A stretch of 64,000 bases of DNA from Pseudomonas urmiensis (GTDB lineage Bacteria > Pseudomonadota > Gammaproteobacteria > Pseudomonadales > Pseudomonadaceae): assembly GCF_014268815.2 (NCBI RefSeq), contig NZ_JABWRE020000001.1, positions 3,973,001-4,037,000 of the forward strand, read 5' to 3'. The position numbers and the translations under genes were made by a program. The notes beneath the pieces were generated by a model. That model made no database searches, had not been told where the DNA came from, and saw only the letters and a list, made by a program, of their open reading frames with translations. Of the stretch, positions 54,451 through 63,568 are shown piece after piece (position 1 is the first letter of the stretch; each line of letters opens with the position of its first letter).

Positions 54451-55368
54451 CTAGAAGTCCGATCGAATCCCCGAAGCATCGAGAGTTTCATGGTCTTCGG
54501 ATGTACTCGCCGCAGAGTTGATCCAATCCTCCTCTTGATCGTGCCAGTCGCCCGTGTCTACCATCAAAGAGTCTTCGACGAACTCTAGCGCCTCAGGATT
54601 TGGATTTGCCGCTTCGCAGGTCAATTCGCAGGTGTAATCGAACGACTCATCTAGTTCGGCTCCATCGCCCCTTCTGAGATCAGAGTTAGATCCCCACTGC
54701 AGTGTTACCCCTATGCTACCGCTTACCCTGATATGTACGGTCTCAGAGGTGATACTGGTAACCTCATGCGAGTCCACGTAGATTTCTTCAAGGGAATAGT
54801 GCGTGGCTAGCTCATCCACAGCGTCCAAACTTTCCCCAACAATCTGCTGGACCGTTGCATCATTGATCGCATGCGATAAACGATCCCCGACGGCGGCTCT
54901 GCACTCTTGGATGCAGGCCATCAGTCCGGCCACGGCTTCGATTGTTTCTACTGCGAGGCGCTCGATATCGTCTTCTTCCAAGAGGAAAACTTCTGGTGTG
55001 ATGTGGACGTACCCGTTCAAACGGACTACGGCATCTCGAAGCTCCTCAAACTCCTGAGCGAAGTCCAACCGGAGCTTTGTTCGCACGTAGTGGTTGGAAA
55101 GCCCGCCCTGCGTTGCATACACACACCGCTCGACTCGCGTTACCTCCGGGACAACGCCTTCTGCCTTCTGCTGCCACCATATGCACTTTTTCACCTCGGC
55201 GTCTGGAGCAAGGCGCTTCAGCGTGTGACCCACCAGCTCGCGCATAGCAAAGGCGAAGTTATGAAAGCGCAGCCTGTTCCTGCGGTCTTCGAGATTAAAC
55301 ATCGCAGCTTCATAAAGGCAACGCTCGAACTGAGCATCACCGATTAACTGCAAGATCCTTTCGTCCAT
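54451..55368 (-). CDS. Defence-island protein, possibly a pPIWI-associated-type nuclease
   Basis: 305 aa from ATG 55368 (AGAGGA site 6 nt upstream). The N-terminal ~170 residues are helical (MDERILQLIGDAQFERCLYE, RFHNFAFAMRELVGHTLKRL, KKCIWWQQ), and the C-terminal ~130 are acidic and beta-rich (TVHIRVSGSIGVTLQWGSNS, FDYTCELTCEA). The start pattern recalls proteins annotated as pPIWI-associating nuclease (pP_pnuc_1), but that is from memory and unverified. It lies on the same strand 180 bp after the 45-aa ORF that trails the 1374-aa gene, so it may be part of that unit. Cytoplasmic; no membrane segment. Confidence 0.6.
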   Translation of the reverse strand: MDERILQLIGDAQFERCLYEAAMFNLEDRRNRLRFHNFAFAMRELVGHTLKRLAPDAEVKKCIWWQQKAEGVVPEVTRVERCVYATQGGLSNHYVRTKLRLDFAQEFEELRDAVVRLNGYVHITPEVFLLEEDDIERLAVETIEAVAGLMACIQECRAAVGDRLSHAINDATVQQIVGESLDAVDELATHYSLEEIYVDSHEVTSITSETVHIRVSGSIGVTLQWGSNSDLRRGDGAELDESFDYTCELTCEAANPNPEALEFVEDSLMVDTGDWHDQEEDWINSAASTSEDHETLDASGIRSDF

Positions 55369-55547
55369 GTTCTTCCTCTCGTCTACGACCATTCCGGATC
55401 ATCGCTCAGAGCGGGAATGGAAGTCACCTATAGGCTAAGCGCAACGGATGTTATGCGCTTCAGGGGACCATGCAGTCAGGGCTTGGCCAATAATGGCCGA
55501 GCAAGGGGCAACAGCCCCAGATCCATGGTAACTGCCGCAGCCTCGCG

Positions 55548-55685
55548 TTAAATCCAACGACGCTCAAACACAGCATGCTCGTCGACCGGCGGGACATCCA
55601 TTCGAACCCAACCAGTTAAGCAGTTCATCATCGACTCGCTAGTCAAGATCTCGGTCATGATGAACTGCTCCATAGCCATATTCAT
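55548..55685 (-). CDS. 45-aa ORF translationally coupled to the large defence gene
   Basis: The minus-strand ATG (55685-55683) overlaps the stop of the 1374-aa gene as TGATG. The ORF encodes MNMAMEQFIMTEILTSESMM followed by NCLTGWVRMDVPPVDEHAVF and ERRWI, and stops at TAA 55548. No separate ribosome-binding site is visible, as expected for termination-reinitiation coupling. It is net acidic with a Met-rich start. I do not recognise it; expression is inferred only from the overlap. Confidence 0.45.
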   Translation of the reverse strand: MNMAMEQFIMTEILTSESMMNCLTGWVRMDVPPVDEHAVFERRWI

Positions 55686-58600
55686 CAGTGTAAGCGGCGA
55701 CGAATACCTGCTTGATTGTCCTCTCGAATCGCTTCATGATCGTAAGTTCTAGCCAAACTCATAAGCAACTTCGAAGCAACAAATGGATGTGAAAACTGTA
55801 AAGCTTCACTCCAAGTTCGATATCTAGTAGCGAGCTCGCGTTCTTGCTCGCCCCCCTCACCACGAAAATGTGCACCCCGAGAGTTGTAAACTCCTGTATG
55901 CGCCCCCTCCATCATTGGCTCAGACTGAATATCTTCAATCACGTTACGAACAGGCGTGCACGGCCAGATGCCATCTTTTCCCACTGGTGCGTGCGAAAGG
56001 AGCTTCCCAATACAAACATCCGCAATGTCTCCACGACTCAGTTCGTTACACGACTGGCGGACCGCCTCTATCCATTTCGCAAGACGCACTTCATCAACCT
56101 CGCCGAAATCATCCTGTCCAGGCAGGCGGTGTATAGTCTCTAGCAACCTGTAACCGCGCTTGGCCATTTCGCCTATGCGATCTGGCGTGATTTGAAACTC
56201 AGCAGGGTCGGTCGCGCCATCCGCTCGTTTGTACATCCAGCAAATTGCCTGAACGTATAATTCAGGATGCTGCTCAATGTATTTTTCAAGATTGGGAACT
56301 TTGGAAACTTCGGACCTGCTCCAGGGTTGTCCTAATACATCTATATATGCGAACTCCAGGCTAGCCATTTGCTCAAGAGATATAGATGAAGATCGATTTA
56401 ACTGATTGAACGCTTCTTCGACGTGGTAATGCTCTAGCATGTACTGATCAGGCAGATCCCTACCACCTTTTGCCATCTCTGACAACAGCTTGAAAATTAC
56501 CATTCCGTCAATTTTAGCTATCTCATATCGAATGCACGAAAATGCTGCGCGAGGTCTTTCGGCATTTAACAAGCGCTCGACAGCTTCGCTGCTCTCCGAT
56601 TCTGGGCCATGCAGCCATTCCGGCGCTACCTCGCCCCAGTAACGTAACTGAGCACGCTCTCCAAGGGTATCAACCAGCTTCCAAGTGCCTTTTCCAAACG
56701 GGGCAAGCAAGAAAAGATCAACCATACCCTCCTCAGACTCACCAGAGATGACTTTGAGCAAGATGGTTTCGCGCTGAACGTCATCCGTGATAGCTCGAAT
56801 TGCACCACCGATGAGGTTCTTCTGAGAATGGACCTCACTCTCACCGATGAGGATCGGATCAAGTGCAAGTCGAAGTAATTCGACCAACTCCGATTCCGAC
56901 AGGACGGAGCCAGCGGCAAGGGAACCAATCACCCAAGGAGCTCCTCCTTGTTCGGACAATTTTAAAATTCCGGAAAAACCACGTTGCATGAATACTTCGC
57001 GTAACGCTTCTGCTCTCTGATCGTTGATGCGCTTTTCACGCTCACGGTAGTTAGACTCTTCAATATTCTCTAATTCGTCAGCAGACTCCTCGACCCAAGC
57101 ATTGCGGAACAGCCACAAATACTTATGAAGTAGATCGCTCGGTTCAAGCGCGTCATAGGCGGCTTTTCCTGCTGCGGTTAAACTGTCGTCAACACCAGTC
57201 CTCTTCGCACGTAGAACCGCACGACGCGATAGTGTTGAAACTCGAATTTTCTCGCGCATCACTGCCTTGTCAGCGTCACTTGCCTCAGCCTTTGCCCAAC
57301 TCTCAATTAACTTCCATACTCTAGCCTGGTCCTCGTTACTCAGCGATTGTAAGCGATCGACTAAATCACTGAGCATTTCCAAGGTGTAATCCGCCCAGCT
57401 CAAAGAGAGCTCAACCACCTCACGTACAAACTCTCTAATCGGCCCCCACGTAGGAAGGGGCTCGCCGTATCCATAACCATCAGCGCGCCATCGCGGCTTG
57501 TGACTATAGTCGCCAACTTGACTGTGATTCTCAAACTGAGCGATACAAATCTTCCATGCGACATCAGGAAACTTCAAAGCTAGTTTCTTAATCAAATCCA
57601 CACGTTGGGGTAGACTTGCCGCGGTCTGAGGCATCCATGCTCGAAAAATCGAGCGCAGCGAATTTGCGGGCTTGTTGAGCCAGTTGTCCTTAATCTCTAT
57701 CTGCGCGAGCCGTGCGAGAATCAAGGCAGCACGGTGTAAGGTAGCGGGATTCCATGACAGCCCTTCAAGCGCCCACAACAACCCCGTTCGACTTGGGCTA
57801 CCGCCTAGCAAGCCCGGGCTGACTGGCCTCAGAAGTCCAAATACCGCAGGACTCTCCGATCGAAGGTCCCGCTCCAATATAGATAGAAATTCATCTGGAG
57901 CTGCTTCTGCATAAGTCGGAAGGTCGCGATCATTAGCTTCTAAAGCTCGTGTTGTTAAAGGAGCCCGAAGCAAATCACGAACTACCCGAATTACCTCCGT
58001 TTCAATATCAATGCCGAAGCGCCCCCTGAACACTTCTTCGCCGTGAACCGCGAGTAAAACCAACGTTTCCGATATGCCTTCTCTGAAGGTGCTGGAGAAT
58101 TCGCGCACCTTGCCATGATGTGGCGCAATCCAACGCTGGTCTTCATCAAGGTCGAGAGCGGGGTCGTCCTCTCCTAGGACCATGCGTGCCATTTCAAAAT
58201 AGCGAGTTAGGTCAACTTCCATGATCCCGTCAGCGGCTGCGTAGAGCAGATCAAGCTTTGAAACCACTCCTCTGGCGGTGCCTATCGACCATATCGGCGC
58301 GTCGTTAAGTTTTGCCAAGTTTTGACAGTCTTTTTCAAGCTCGTCGTAGGGGCGCTCACCAGCCAGAAGTGAGAGCCCTATTTTATCGGCGTCGTTCCGG
58401 CTATCCCAAGCCCCGACGAGCAGAAATGGAACAAGCTTGGTTGCTATATGGACGTTCGCAGCCCACTCTGGCAATTGCACTGCTTGTACGGACGAGAGAC
58501 GTCTTCGCAAAACAGTAAGAGAGCGGCCCGAAATTTTAGCAAGCTGAGTGACTTCATCCCTACTCTTGCCCATCCCTTCCAGGGCCGTATTGAACGCCTG

Positions 58601-59809
58601 ATAGCTAGCCGGCTCCAAGATTACATCAGGAATCTTTATTGCGGCATTACGAGGATAAATTACAAACGAGTGCATAGACTTTGCGAAGGGAGCAAGATCT
58701 CGCTCAACCTCACGAGTGTATACGACCGGTATGAACGTTTGTTTACCCGAAGCGAGCCGAGGCAGCACATCAGGCTTGTCAAATACCAAGACCCGATCTC
58801 GATATGAAGCTAACTCTTCACCGCCATATTCACTAAGTAACTGGGCAAGAAATGCAAGCGCCTCTTCTGTTGAATCTGCAGCGATAGTAATTGGACGCTC
58901 TGGCGTATTGGATAAGCGGCTTATAACTGTGCGCTTTGCAGACTCAATCGCAGAATTGAATAGAGCACCTGTGAGAGGAGGCGCTGCGACCTCGGCCCAG
59001 TCTGCCCAGCATTTGTCGAGCGAACGAACGGCCTGTGCTGGGGTGCATGTCTCATTGGCGAACCATGCTTGGGCTGGCAGAGACTGCTCAAGCCATTGCT
59101 CAAGATCGCTCGCGTCATAAGCACGCACATCCCTCCACAGATTTAGCTCTTTCTTAGAATTAACCCAGGTAGCCTTCCCAGCCCAACGGCGGGGGGTAAC
59201 AAACACAAACGTCGTTTCGGCACGCTCTCTGTCTTCGAGCGCAGCTACGCTCTTCTCAAAGTCGCCACTTGCTTTAGAGCGGGGATCTTCATTGGTTCCA
59301 AACTCCCAGCCGGAGCGACCGACTGGAATCCAAGGCGTCCCCTCGCCTGCTGTAACGAAACCATCCCACCCCGGTCGCTCGGCATCGTCATTGCCAGGAA
59401 AGTCGACTTTTGTGAGCCCGCGGCCGGTCGAGTGCACAAGCGTGCGCAAGAAAACGGCCAAGCGGGATCGCGCTCGAATGCTGTGGGAGACCCACCCTTC
59501 AATGGCATTAGCCTGAATCGCTAGGAATGGGGGGACATAGGTCACCGCATCAACAGGCGCTGCCTTTCGCTGGGCTCGCGACGCCTCGTATTGCGCCTGC
59601 ATCTCCATCAAGTCCCTGAGCGGAAACTTAAACGCCTTCTCTAGTCGGGCAGCCATTTCCGCAGATAAAGCAGCCTTACCATTGAGCAGGTTCGATAAGG
59701 CAGGCCGCCCAACGCCTACAAGCTGGGCAGCCTTCGTGACTGACATCCCGGACGGGATGACCTCTGTCTTAATGCGTATCCCAGGGTGTAGAGCATCGAT
59801 GGTCGGCAT
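55685..59809 (-). CDS. Large putative defence protein: HigA-like HTH, PD-(D/E)XK-like nuclease region, NTPase-like region without visible P-loop, helical C-terminus
   Basis: 1374 aa from ATG 59809 (GAGG upstream). Residues ~5-75 form a HigA/VapI-type XRE HTH (GMSVTKAAQLVGVGRPALSN, LLNGKAALSAEMAARLEKAF). Residues ~100-245 look like a restriction-endonuclease fold: Glu104, Asp149 (RPGWDGFV), Glu169 (SGWEFGTNEDP), Lys179, then the hydrophobic strand TTFVFVTPRRW. Residues ~285-440 resemble a STAND-type NTPase core, but the expected P-loop position reads ITIAADSTEEALAF with no GK(S/T). About 900 mostly helical residues follow. No membrane segment. A palindrome at 59861-59884 suggests autorepression by the HTH. 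A 45-aa ORF is coupled to its stop. Domain calls are by eye. Confidence 0.75.
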   Translation of the reverse strand: MPTIDALHPGIRIKTEVIPSGMSVTKAAQLVGVGRPALSNLLNGKAALSAEMAARLEKAFKFPLRDLMEMQAQYEASRAQRKAAPVDAVTYVPPFLAIQANAIEGWVSHSIRARSRLAVFLRTLVHSTGRGLTKVDFPGNDDAERPGWDGFVTAGEGTPWIPVGRSGWEFGTNEDPRSKASGDFEKSVAALEDRERAETTFVFVTPRRWAGKATWVNSKKELNLWRDVRAYDASDLEQWLEQSLPAQAWFANETCTPAQAVRSLDKCWADWAEVAAPPLTGALFNSAIESAKRTVISRLSNTPERPITIAADSTEEALAFLAQLLSEYGGEELASYRDRVLVFDKPDVLPRLASGKQTFIPVVYTREVERDLAPFAKSMHSFVIYPRNAAIKIPDVILEPASYQAFNTALEGMGKSRDEVTQLAKISGRSLTVLRRRLSSVQAVQLPEWAANVHIATKLVPFLLVGAWDSRNDADKIGLSLLAGERPYDELEKDCQNLAKLNDAPIWSIGTARGVVSKLDLLYAAADGIMEVDLTRYFEMARMVLGEDDPALDLDEDQRWIAPHHGKVREFSSTFREGISETLVLLAVHGEEVFRGRFGIDIETEVIRVVRDLLRAPLTTRALEANDRDLPTYAEAAPDEFLSILERDLRSESPAVFGLLRPVSPGLLGGSPSRTGLLWALEGLSWNPATLHRAALILARLAQIEIKDNWLNKPANSLRSIFRAWMPQTAASLPQRVDLIKKLALKFPDVAWKICIAQFENHSQVGDYSHKPRWRADGYGYGEPLPTWGPIREFVREVVELSLSWADYTLEMLSDLVDRLQSLSNEDQARVWKLIESWAKAEASDADKAVMREKIRVSTLSRRAVLRAKRTGVDDSLTAAGKAAYDALEPSDLLHKYLWLFRNAWVEESADELENIEESNYREREKRINDQRAEALREVFMQRGFSGILKLSEQGGAPWVIGSLAAGSVLSESELVELLRLALDPILIGESEVHSQKNLIGGAIRAITDDVQRETILLKVISGESEEGMVDLFLLAPFGKGTWKLVDTLGERAQLRYWGEVAPEWLHGPESESSEAVERLLNAERPRAAFSCIRYEIAKIDGMVIFKLLSEMAKGGRDLPDQYMLEHYHVEEAFNQLNRSSSISLEQMASLEFAYIDVLGQPWSRSEVSKVPNLEKYIEQHPELYVQAICWMYKRADGATDPAEFQITPDRIGEMAKRGYRLLETIHRLPGQDDFGEVDEVRLAKWIEAVRQSCNELSRGDIADVCIGKLLSHAPVGKDGIWPCTPVRNVIEDIQSEPMMEGAHTGVYNSRGAHFRGEGGEQERELATRYRTWSEALQFSHPFVASKLLMSLARTYDHEAIREDNQAGIRRRLH

Positions 59810-59860
59810 CGTGAATCCTCGGTGTATTAAGCTGTGGAGTCGAGCTCGCTCCAAAATATT

Positions 59861-59884
59861 GTATTGCGTAGCGCTACACAATAC
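59861..59884. promoter_or_regulatory. Palindromic operator upstream of the 1374-aa gene
   Basis: GTATTGCGTAGCGCTACACAATAC (shown in two halves: GTATTGCGTAGC and GCTACACAATAC) is a 24-bp palindrome with one mismatch pair, 52-75 bp before the ATG. HigA-type HTH proteins bind such sites in their own promoters. Confidence 0.65.
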
Positions 59885-60105
59885 ACTAATGTAGCTCCAG
59901 CAGGAGAGATGTGGACCATTTGACTGCTTGACCCTGTCAGGAGACGTAGGATTTTCGTCAAAGGCCTAAAGCTTGAATCAGCGGGCGTATTGAAGGGAGT
60001 GATCGCAGCGCCCAGCGGTGGCGGCTGGTTCCGAGCAGCCGATGATACTGCTCACGCGAGTGACTCAACGGTGGGATTTGGTTTTCTCGCCCCGTAAAAA
60101 GCAAA

Positions 60106-60127: not shown

Positions 60128-60221
60128 CTTACTCAGGGTACGCGGGCACGACCGGAATTCCGGAAAACCCACGTTTCGAGAGTGAAGATAGTAGAAAACC
60201 GATACGTTGACAAGGGACTCT

Positions 60222-61160
60222 ATGCATTTCCACCTGACCGCCCCGCGCCTCAAGACCCTCGACACATTTTTCGTTACCACGAGCGACAGCGATCTCTTGG
60301 GATGCTATGCATGGACGCAAGCAGTCGGAGCCGCTCTCCTACCAATCCTCGGCGACCTCGAGGTCAGCCTTCGCAATGCCCTGCATAGAGGCCTGTCCCA
60401 GTACTATAGCGGAGCGGACAGCTTCGAGTGGATGCTCAAAACGAGACCTAACCCGTCCAGTCCTGCCGAGCCAACCTACTGGCACAAGCTCACACGATAC
60501 ACCCATGAGGATGTACTCGGCGCGGTAGGGAAAATCGCGAAGAAGAAAGGAAAAGGGAATGCAACTGTTGACGACATTGTCGCGAAGGTCCCCTTCGGAT
60601 TCTGGGAAACGATTATCAAAGGCTTGAAGCATAAATCGCACCCTGCTGGCATGCAGGCTAGCGTTTTATCAATAGCATTTCCAAACGCCCCTGACCTGGC
60701 TACGACGCCATACGATGATGCAGCGTTTGTCGACCGACTGGCTAATCTACTTAGCCAAGTACGAGATGTTCGAAATAGGATTGGCCATCACGATCAGATC
60801 TGGAGAACGCCGGAGTTTGACTCATATGGCAATCTGGGCTTTATACCTCGCCGGCCACGCCAAACGGTAAACAGCCTCCGTTTGCTCGCAAACCAAATAA
60901 CTTGGCTAGCAGGCTGGATAGATCCCGAAATTACTAATTACATTAAGGCGTCCGATCACTGGTGGTCCCTGCAAGCTCTGCTGACAAAAGAAGCATTGAC
61001 AGTGTATCGGAAGAACGGTGGTAGGGTCGGTACGTACGAGGCGGTGATTCGCACGACACCACAGCATGAAGTCGTCACTTGGCCTAACAAGACTCCTCGT
61101 ACTCCTGAAAAAATCCATAGGATCAATCGTCGCAGAGTATCTAACAAAATTTTCTATTGA
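60222..61160 (+). CDS. Abi-like (AbiD/F, Abi_2-type) HEPN protein
   Basis: 312 aa. The N-terminal part (WTQAVGAALLPILGDLEVSL, RNALH) and the motif RDVRNRIGHHD (Arg184…His189, an Rx4H HEPN ribonuclease motif) match abortive-infection proteins of the Abi_2/AbiD group, which cut RNA during phage attack. Helical throughout, cytoplasmic. ATG 60222 is chosen (AAGGGA just upstream; TTG 60207 possible). AT-richer than the core genome. It stands alone, convergent with a short remnant frame at its end. Confidence 0.72.
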   Translation: MHFHLTAPRLKTLDTFFVTTSDSDLLGCYAWTQAVGAALLPILGDLEVSLRNALHRGLSQYYSGADSFEWMLKTRPNPSSPAEPTYWHKLTRYTHEDVLGAVGKIAKKKGKGNATVDDIVAKVPFGFWETIIKGLKHKSHPAGMQASVLSIAFPNAPDLATTPYDDAAFVDRLANLLSQVRDVRNRIGHHDQIWRTPEFDSYGNLGFIPRRPRQTVNSLRLLANQITWLAGWIDPEITNYIKASDHWWSLQALLTKEALTVYRKNGGRVGTYEAVIRTTPQHEVVTWPNKTPRTPEKIHRINRRRVSNKIFY

Positions 61161-62640: not shown

Positions 62641-62907
62641 ATGAACGATCCTCAGATACTAGCGCTGTGCCCAAGTTCACCACAGGGGTGTTGGAGCATC
62701 GACCACCGATGCTTCAAGGGAAGGTGCGAACAAACCTTGCATCTGGCAACGCTAGTGCTTGGCGGTCGTGTGCTTGCCGCGCAATGGCTGTACAAGCCAG
62801 CGATCGGGCTAAGGCATCAGTCACCTTGCAGCATCTTGGTAACTCGATCGGGCTACCAGCAAGTGGTGACACTTCTAGGACGAATTGAATACGGTGTCTA
62901 CGCTTAA
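62641..62907 (+). CDS. MbcA/ParS/Xre-type antitoxin-like protein (DUF2384)
   Basis: 88 aa from ATG 62641 (GAGGTG 5 nt upstream). The C-terminal half, VLAAQWLYKPAIGLRHQSPC then SILVTRSGYQQVVTLLGRIE and YGVYA, matches the toxin-binding DUF2384 domain of RES-Xre and ParST antitoxins (pattern A..WL..P...L....P..LL.T..G...V..LLGRIE.G). The N-terminal part is unusual, Cys-rich (LCPSSPQGCWSIDHRCFKGRC) and not an HTH. No RES or ParT toxin gene is next to it. Confidence 0.65.
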   Translation: MNDPQILALCPSSPQGCWSIDHRCFKGRCEQTLHLATLVLGGRVLAAQWLYKPAIGLRHQSPCSILVTRSGYQQVVTLLGRIEYGVYA

Positions 62908-62965
62908 CGCCGCTGGGTTCCATGCCAGAGTAACTGCCCACAACTCGTCTGACATAGGATCAGCT

Positions 62966-63568
62966 GTGTCCATCGCAGAGTCTATCTCGAACCGTATCAA
63001 GCGTATGCGTAAGGGGAGGCCCTTTGTTAGGAACGTATTCGAGAGAACGGGCTCACGCACTGCGGTAAACAAAGCTCTGTCTCGGATGGTGCTCAGTGGT
63101 TCTCTGGAGCGTGTTGCCCGCGGCGTTTACATGCGTCCCATGCGCAGCCGATACACGGGCAAAATGATTCGAGCCAACCCGATTTCTGTGTTAGAAGCCG
63201 TTGCCAGGGCAAGAGGCGAGACTATTCAGATCCATGGTGCAGAAGCTCTTCGCCGACTGGGGCTAAGTGTTCAAATGCAGGTTTTGCCCACTTTCTACAC
63301 CAGCGGAAGGACACGTGAGATCAAGATTGGTAACGCGGTTGTTCGGCTGCGCCATGCGTCTCGCCGACGACTCCAACAAGCGGGAACGAAAATAGGGATG
63401 GCACTGACCGCCCTTTTCTATCTCGGAGAAAATGGCGTAACTGAGCAGATCGCGATCAAGATCGCCAATTCGCTCGATCACGAGGAATTCAATAAGCTTA
63501 TGACGTGCAAAATGCCTAAGTGGATGCGCTCAGCACTGGCCAATTGCAATTGGAATGCGCGCGAATAA
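62966..63568 (+). CDS. AbiEi-like antitoxin-type protein (DUF6088)
   Basis: 200 aa from GTG 62966 (AGGATC upstream); the frame is open to 62885, but family members start at SIAESISNRIKRM. The N-terminal winged helix (RTAVNKALSRMVLSGSLERVARGVYMRP, split here at ~residue 40-68) and the middle QIHGAEALRRLGLSVQMQVL / FYTSGRTREIKIG fit DUF6088, related to AbiEi of type IV toxin-antitoxin systems. Such genes are usually followed by an AbiEii nucleotidyltransferase toxin; none follows here. Confidence 0.78.
   Translation: MSIAESISNRIKRMRKGRPFVRNVFERTGSRTAVNKALSRMVLSGSLERVARGVYMRPMRSRYTGKMIRANPISVLEAVARARGETIQIHGAEALRRLGLSVQMQVLPTFYTSGRTREIKIGNAVVRLRHASRRRLQQAGTKIGMALTALFYLGENGVTEQIAIKIANSLDHEEFNKLMTCKMPKWMRSALANCNWNARE

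Follow-up and report, generated by a model that had tools for sequence, protein, structure and literature searches.

We analysed a stretch of 64,000 nucleotides from Pseudomonas urmiensis (hereafter the window) that carries, on its minus strand, a gene whose 1374-residue product joins a HigA-type helix-turn-helix (HTH) domain, a restriction-endonuclease-like domain, a STAND-like module and a long alpha-solenoid. Our analysis suggests, with a probability of roughly 0.6, that this gene encodes a self-repressed, mobile, stand-alone anti-phage nuclease that is built like the Avs and PD-lambda-4A systems and is apparently dead as a nucleoside triphosphatase (NTPase).

A sequence-only reading of the window had proposed this minus-strand gene as a candidate new defence system, and its open reading frame (ORF) indeed runs from an ATG at 59809 to 55685. 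This ATG is the start used by homologues: in 76 of 80 family members (L040-L119), the alignment begins no later than query residue 17. The 80 were kept from a pattern scan of a genome collection, in which 583 of 590 stretches were confirmed as relatives. A longer ORF from a TTG at 59881 would start within the palindrome described below and is unneeded. The HigA-like DNA-binding domain named in the sequence-only reading is recognised by Pfam HTH_3 (6.4e-8) and by the NCBIfam HigA antidote family TIGR02607 (3.3e-13), both past their curated cut-offs, and HigA and GraA structures match it with target-normalised template-modelling (TM) scores of 0.66-0.83 among the Foldseek matches listed. Apart from the HTH, no Pfam or NCBIfam family reaches its cut-off anywhere on the 1374-residue chain. 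The features of the locus are as follows.

55685..59809, minus strand: gene, 1374 amino acids from the conserved ATG, stop included
59861..59884, strandless: putative 24-bp palindromic operator, 52-75 bp before the ATG, in gene sense GTATTGTGTAGCGCTACGCAATAC
59567..59809, minus strand: residues 1-81, HigA-type HTH (Pfam, NCBIfam and structure matches)
59030..59524, minus strand: residues 96-260, restriction-endonuclease-like domain (invariant residues, model, profile alignment with PD-lambda-4A relatives)
59363-59365, 59303-59305 and 59273-59275, minus strand: codons of D149, E169 and K179, respectively
58490..58969, minus strand: residues 281-440, STAND-like module without Walker A (model, alignment, Foldseek)
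58220..58471, minus strand: residues 447-530, winged-helix-like domain that opens the shared sensor core (model)
55688..58219, minus strand: residues 531-1374, alpha-solenoid, presumed sensor (model)
56450-57049, minus strand: residues ~921-1120, most variable part of the solenoid

A putative palindromic operator and the HigA-type HTH

The promoter palindrome that had been claimed at 59861-59884 is real. It lies at -75 to -52 relative to the ATG and matches at 11 of 12 arm pairs, a score that was not reached once when the upstream region (160 bases) was shuffled 300 times. When GTATNGNGTARCGYTACNCNATAC was searched with up to three mismatches, a single site was found in the 5.79 Mb host genome.

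Comparison across the family ties this element to the HTH. From the 81 genes considered (the window's and the 80 homologues), 76 were usable, after L051, L077, L087, L113 and L117 had been dropped on account of their upstream DNA or N-terminus. A palindrome with 12-base arms and a score of at least 10 is present upstream of 40 of these 76 members versus 7 of 380 shuffles. The core TGTARCGYTACA, allowing up to two mismatches, occurs in 72 of the 76 HigA-HTH members (window included). The same search hit 14 of 760 shuffles and 5 of 233 control genes, and came up empty in all 14 members that lack a HigA HTH. The last group consists of ten members without an HTH, two with another XRE HTH, L027 and L117, with L006 and L008 being near-copies. 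The consensus was derived from the same sequences, and we therefore repeated the search with the window's own undegenerated core, which was found in 53 of 75 homologues versus 10 of 750 shuffles and, again, in none of the 14 members without a HigA HTH.

Additional observations reinforce this pattern. Eight loci were fetched later from viral contigs. The operator accompanies the gene in all four that encode the HTH, of which L159 and L162 come from one sample, and in none of the four that do not, of which L164 is a broken copy with no known start. The outer GTA..TAC half-sites, which the search did not use, show 89-100% conservation across 47 aligned regions (those having no more than one mismatch in the core and enough flanking sequence on either side), a figure that falls to ~28-55% beyond the bases that adjoin them. 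L117 has lost both the HTH and the operator, which its sister L084 retains. A related form of the operator, TGTAATGTGTTGCATTACACATTACA, is present in L089, and variants are found in L059, L063, L067, L068, L070-L072 and L084.

The operator also resembles those of characterized HigA-family proteins. Descriptions of the GraA and PaHigA operators include the central palindromes TAACGTTA and TTAAC GTTAA, respectively (PMC6393540, PMC6987408), and the TARCGYTA core found here has the same half-site. On comparative sequence grounds, the association between HTH and operator is thus strongly supported. The idea that the protein carries a repressor domain with its own operator emerges much strengthened from this co-occurrence, and the HTH presumably binds its own operator and represses the gene.

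Domain architecture and kinship with known systems

An AlphaFold2 model of residues 1-640, built from a 79-sequence alignment (predicted local distance difference test (pLDDT) score 88.7), contains a helix at 113-128, strands at 130-136, 150-156 and 164-170, a helix at 176-190, a strand at 199-204, a helix at 212-221 and a strand at 227-231. This order of elements across 113-231 is that of the restriction-endonuclease core, and the nuclease fold that had been set beforehand as a check on residues 100-245 is thus found in the predicted structure. In the model, D149 directly precedes strand 2, E169 lies close to where strand 3 ends and K179 belongs to the helix that follows, an arrangement in which a PD-(D/E)XK core has its aspartate before strand 2 and its glutamate on strand 3. 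All three residues are invariant in the 78 members that cover the region (2 of the 80 lack it) and in the 19 members of a broader set, A1, that reaches down to 24% identity and in which 8 members share the HigA-type N-terminus. Of the four active-site residues initially proposed, these three are upheld and Glu104 falls, its variability (kept in only 56 of 78 and 7 of 19) ruling it out as a catalytic residue.

The position two residues past the glutamate, where a lysine would be expected, holds G, S or T in this family, and E169 itself aligns with the glutamine of a Q-x-K motif in PD-lambda-4A relatives (profile alignment). In several PD-(D/E)XK families, the lysine of motif III is described as having moved onto the helix that follows strand 3 (PMC1913061), and K179, as modelled, occupies just such a relocated position. 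The invariance of D149, E169 and K179, together with this precedent, makes nuclease activity likely, as judged from alignment and model.

The next part of the chain is modelled as a STAND-like module, with strands at 307-311, 340-343, 360-363 and 382-386 and helices between them, that leads through further helices to a winged helix at ~447-530. A strict Walker A motif, GxxxxGK[ST], is absent from residues 270-460 in all 80 members (L113 spans only the last part), in agreement with the earlier description of a STAND-like region without a P-loop, and the Walker A and B motifs of Avs/AVAST proteins are missing. The P-loop position mostly reads A-D-S-x-E-E in A1 members, and strand 3 (359-363, FIPVV) lacks an acidic residue. 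Seven of the 19 chains and 34 of the 80 contain a looser pattern, [GA]xxxxGK[ST], at some point; in those seven it falls at 407-409 (helical in the window model), at 562, at 876 or at 71-77 in the nuclease, and never follows strand 1. Two of the seven, L010 and L011, have a strict Walker A match within the nuclease domain instead. Given the scatter of these matches, we rejected a Walker A motif elsewhere in the chain. One relative, L027, has a different nuclease with a Q-V-K motif that runs into the winged helix, and our reading of its translation reveals no visible NTPase module. The nucleotide switch may thus have been lost stepwise across the family.

The C-terminal part had been described as about 900 helical residues, and a second AlphaFold2 model (residues 440-1374, pLDDT 89.0) gives an alpha-solenoid in which almost all of these 935 residues are helical. 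The winged helix at ~447 opens this sensor part, and members that consist of the core only match the family profile from about there. The solenoid matches many unrelated alpha-solenoids and is uninformative about a ligand. In Foldseek searches of the PDB, Avs4 and Avs3 provided the top three matches (Avs4 E 8.4e-6 over 624 alignment columns). Avs4, Avs3, SAMD9 and Apaf-1 had E-values below 0.001, and NLRP9, CED-4 and HigA structures ranked lower. Identity with Avs4/Avs3 is ~10%, and overall TM scores are low, as expected of a multidomain chain. Like Avs4 and Avs3 (AVAST; 8dgf, 8dgc), the window protein combines an effector, a STAND-like module and a large helical C-terminus in predicted structures, as the sequence-only reading had anticipated; it differs from them in the absence of Walker motifs.

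Profile comparisons reveal a closer relationship to PD-lambda-4A (PDLC03990/PDLC03991). When 19 family members were compared with five PD-lambda-4A relatives, hhalign returned a probability of 99.1 and a pairwise E-value of 8.9e-19 over 1123 columns, whereas an unrelated helical control profile gave a probability of 0.1 with either set. Homology thus extends along the whole PD-lambda-4 A protein, and the nuclease, the STAND-like NTPase region and the helical C-terminus follow one another in the same order in both groups. PADLOC registers little of this: its PD-Lambda-4_A model gives a short, weak match to the window protein (residues 671-743, E 4.2e-5), and model PDLC03991 matches just 6 of the 19 family members at E 0.01. 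All five PD-lambda-4A relatives have the Walker A sequence G-x-x-G-x-G-K-T and invariant Q79 and K81 (the Q-x-K motif). The window family lacks both the P-loop and Q-x-K and, unlike PD-lambda-4A, has the HigA HTH and its operator. L036 (568-4626), a PD-lambda-4A relative, has an N-terminal extension that looks like a separate HTH; a repressor-like domain would then have been joined to this architecture twice, each time independently.

In a review, PD-lambda-4 is entered as having a P-loop NTPase, with credit to Vassallo et al. 2022 (PMC10952713). Functional selection in E. coli yielded 21 defence systems in that work (PMC9519451), whose main text does not name PD-lambda-4. Among the entries listed by the literature searches that we made, none describes the window family. 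PHROG 18693, a collected family of unknown function, covers residues 99-1370 with an E-value of 1.3e-141 and begins past the HTH. The proposal of a new defence system needs amending, in that the family does have kin, PD-lambda-4A being a distant relative. As far as can be judged from sequence, the protein works like an Avs/PD-lambda-4A sensor-nuclease yet belongs neither to Avs, whose Walker motifs it lacks, nor, in the strict sense, to PD-lambda-4.

GAPS6 is an anti-phage system, as its NCBIfam name also implies, and provides a further point of comparison. L026 is a 924-residue core encoded directly after a GapS6a gene (NF047935, 4.7e-41). A Q-x-H-x-G-x-G-x-N motif is found in L026 GapS6a and in both the L026 and the L166 core, at the termini that would come together, and a Q-N-H-x-G-T-G-x-N-V motif is common to GapS6a and the core-only member beside it. 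At three other GapS6a genes, in L182-L184, the partner with a similar motif is another protein, with no significant match to the window family. No GapS6a gene lies beside the window gene or matches at E 0.001 in its genome, and on these grounds we rejected the window gene as a part of GAPS6. A Q-N-H-x-G-T-G-x-N-V-like motif in L026 (7582-10676) and L166 (4984-8700) could pair GapS6a with core-only sensors. In L166 the core stands alone near phage-type genes, such as one for a tape-measure-like protein (our reading), with a small hydrophobic, possibly membrane protein encoded upstream.

The window protein shares its HTH family and operator core (TARCGYTA versus TAACGTTA and TTAAC GTTAA) with HigA/GraA antitoxins. 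It differs from them in that no HigB gene (PF05015) adjoins it and in that the HTH forms only the first 6% of a nuclease-sensor protein.

Mobility and genomic context

In a 44-member tree with branch support from the Shimodaira-Hasegawa-like approximate likelihood ratio test, 28 HigA-HTH members and L117 form one clade. L117 has lost its HTH within this clade, in which it is sister to L084 (support 99), and the two have the same upstream gene (guaA, our reading). The HigA-HTH clade mixes Pseudomonadota, Bacillota, Chloroflexota, Planctomycetota, Nitrospirota and others, which implies that the gene moves between phyla. Occurrence is patchy: at E 1e-20, members were found in 12 of 298 genomes of a genus sample and 11 of 398 of a phylum sample (window included in both). 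We also identified members on plasmids (17 records with 80% cover) and on contigs of a viral collection (8 loci); in L161 the gene adjoins genes for the small and large terminase subunits and an endolysin.

Two other family members, L019 and L028, have a different N-terminal XRE-type HTH (Pfam HTH_3 on L019), and L028 adjoins an annotated AbiEi/AbiEii pair. Several plasmid hits (H24-H26, H30) contain a HigA-type HTH close to that of the window at or next to DNA methyltransferase annotations, which suggests that the HigA-type repressor domain is reused in other DNA-acting proteins.

In the window, G+C content drops from ~64% to 50-54% at the locus. Divergent from the giant gene lies an Abi_2/PD-T4-5-like gene (60207-61160, plus strand; PADLOC 1e-22), and the window also has an AbiEi-like antitoxin gene (62885-63568, plus strand; PADLOC 7.6e-55), so that the Abi and antitoxin-like neighbours noticed earlier are indeed present. 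On the other side, 54451-55392 (minus strand) encodes a pPIWI-associated predicted nuclease (Pfam pP_pnuc_1/2; PADLOC Aga_Nuclease 3.6e-84), with no prokaryotic Argonaute gene noticed next to it in the ORF list. We rejected this downstream nuclease as a partner: G004, a close relative, keeps yebG and the pPIWI-type nuclease gene, with 95.7% DNA identity to window ~55372 and then a transposase-like gene (our reading), and has no family member; nor is there a recurrent neighbour.

Proximity of homologues to defence genes had also been set beforehand as a check. At E 1e-15, 150 neighbour proteins (drawn at random from 539 in 50 loci, none over 1200 amino acids) match 35 PADLOC families, of which 25 were listed with one member each, versus 3 for 150 control ORFs drawn likewise from 255 ORFs at 20 places in ten genomes. 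Two features of this comparison count against the defence reading: nine of the ten control genomes are of one genus whereas the neighbours come from many phyla, and one neighbour protein may explain several PADLOC models (probably those of the same name). Neighbour families are each confined to at most 4 of the 50 loci, and the three largest neighbour clusters are an AMP-binding enzyme and two recombinase/integrase types (our reading).

A PF05015 search of 22 genomes gave 13 matches, none adjoining a family gene (other HigB-type families were not sought), and the host genome's sole match adjoins another HigA 1.27 Mb away. No small ORF is common to more than 2 loci among 142 flanks. These results rule out an adjoining HigB partner in the material searched, and, with no partner that recurs, the gene does not form a toxin-antitoxin pair. 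What it shares with HigBA type II systems is the HigA-family HTH. The contexts of the loci fit a mobile single-gene defence element.

Alternative readings and a proposed mechanism

Several observations weigh against a self-repressed anti-phage nuclease. With respect to the operator, palindrome scores of at least 10 of 12 pairs also occur upstream of 19 of 233 control genes, 4 of 76 HigA-HTH members lack a good core and no sigma-70-like promoter passed a scan of 59740-60010. Nine of the 19 A1 members have no HTH, from which it follows that repression is not essential to the core function. With respect to catalysis, G171 of the window protein occupies the place of the lysine in the Q-x-K motif of PD-lambda-4A relatives, and activity therefore depends on K179 substituting for it. 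No restriction-endonuclease structure was among the 50 Foldseek matches listed for the multidomain chain, and the domain assignment thus rests jointly on topology, alignment and Foldseek hits. A chain without Walker motifs cannot use the ATP-driven STAND switch in its customary form. Finally, we know of no experiment on any member of the window subfamily.

Some of these points lend themselves to other explanations. A defence protein could have lost cleavage and retained a nuclease fold that only binds DNA or scaffolds, as the glycine at position 171 in place of the motif III lysine in most members would allow; we regard this as unlikely, given that D149 and E169 are constant throughout the sets examined and that an invariant K179 sits on the next helix, matching the lysine move cited above. 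The palindrome itself scores as terminator-like at 59885-59860 and might act as an RNA hairpin or terminator, but its arms are near-invariant in their bases where changing pairs would be expected of a hairpin, no conserved T run follows and the palindrome is absent from the examined members without a HigA HTH, all of which makes an RNA role extremely improbable.

Two broader alternatives assign the protein a different biology. The HigA ancestry and the presence of the gene on plasmids and viral-collection contigs would suit stabilisation of a mobile element by addiction, with the nuclease as toxin, the HigA part and operator as antitoxin, and killing unleashed by loss of the element. This scheme seems quite doubtful, as toxin and repressor in one chain make differential decay impossible, neither an adjoining HigB nor a recurrent small ORF was found, and the sensor part is larger and occurs with other effectors. 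STAND-type transcription regulators in the style of MalT and AfsR offer another model, in which the HTH would be the output, the solenoid would detect a partner or small molecule, and DNA binding would be the sole role of the nuclease-like domain. An HTH on a STAND-like chassis and a conserved operator are what such a regulator would have, but the only operator in the host genome is the gene's own, the triad is kept in 19 of 19 A1 members, 9 of them without the HTH, and the loci are mobile and defence-rich with no recurring adjoining gene; we thus find it very improbable.

We return to the self-repressed nuclease and propose the following mechanism. The fused HigA-type HTH would bind the 24-bp operator of its own gene and hold protein levels low. 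The winged helix and alpha-solenoid would recognise an infection signal, probably via the variable middle of the solenoid, and recognition would rearrange or oligomerise the protein through its apparently nucleotide-free STAND-like module. This would switch on the D149/E169/K179 nuclease, which, to judge from its fold and invariance, would cut DNA and either abort the infection or destroy invading DNA. Target engagement may also draw the HTH off the operator, such that sensing raises the protein's own synthesis, by analogy with the de-repression of graTA by GraT. A more specific version of this idea, that the family represents a nucleotide-independent STAND-like receptor in which recognition both frees the nuclease and lifts repression, and whose NTPase module has decayed and been dropped in sister lineages that keep the sensor, is advanced here tentatively. 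If it is true, operator DNA would take the role of an antitoxin and the alarm would be both transcriptional and enzymatic.

Immune nucleases need to be kept at a low level and yet respond fast, and in this family the repressor appears to be built into the sensor-nuclease. The conserved absence of a P-loop poses the question of how a STAND-like receptor might switch without a nucleoside triphosphate. The sensor core is reused with other effectors, including beside GapS6a, and may thus constitute a tradeable detection module that is unnamed in PADLOC and NCBIfam. Since the operator persists across phyla and disappears when the HTH does, a single gene and a 24-bp site would suffice to test the self-control of an immune receptor directly.

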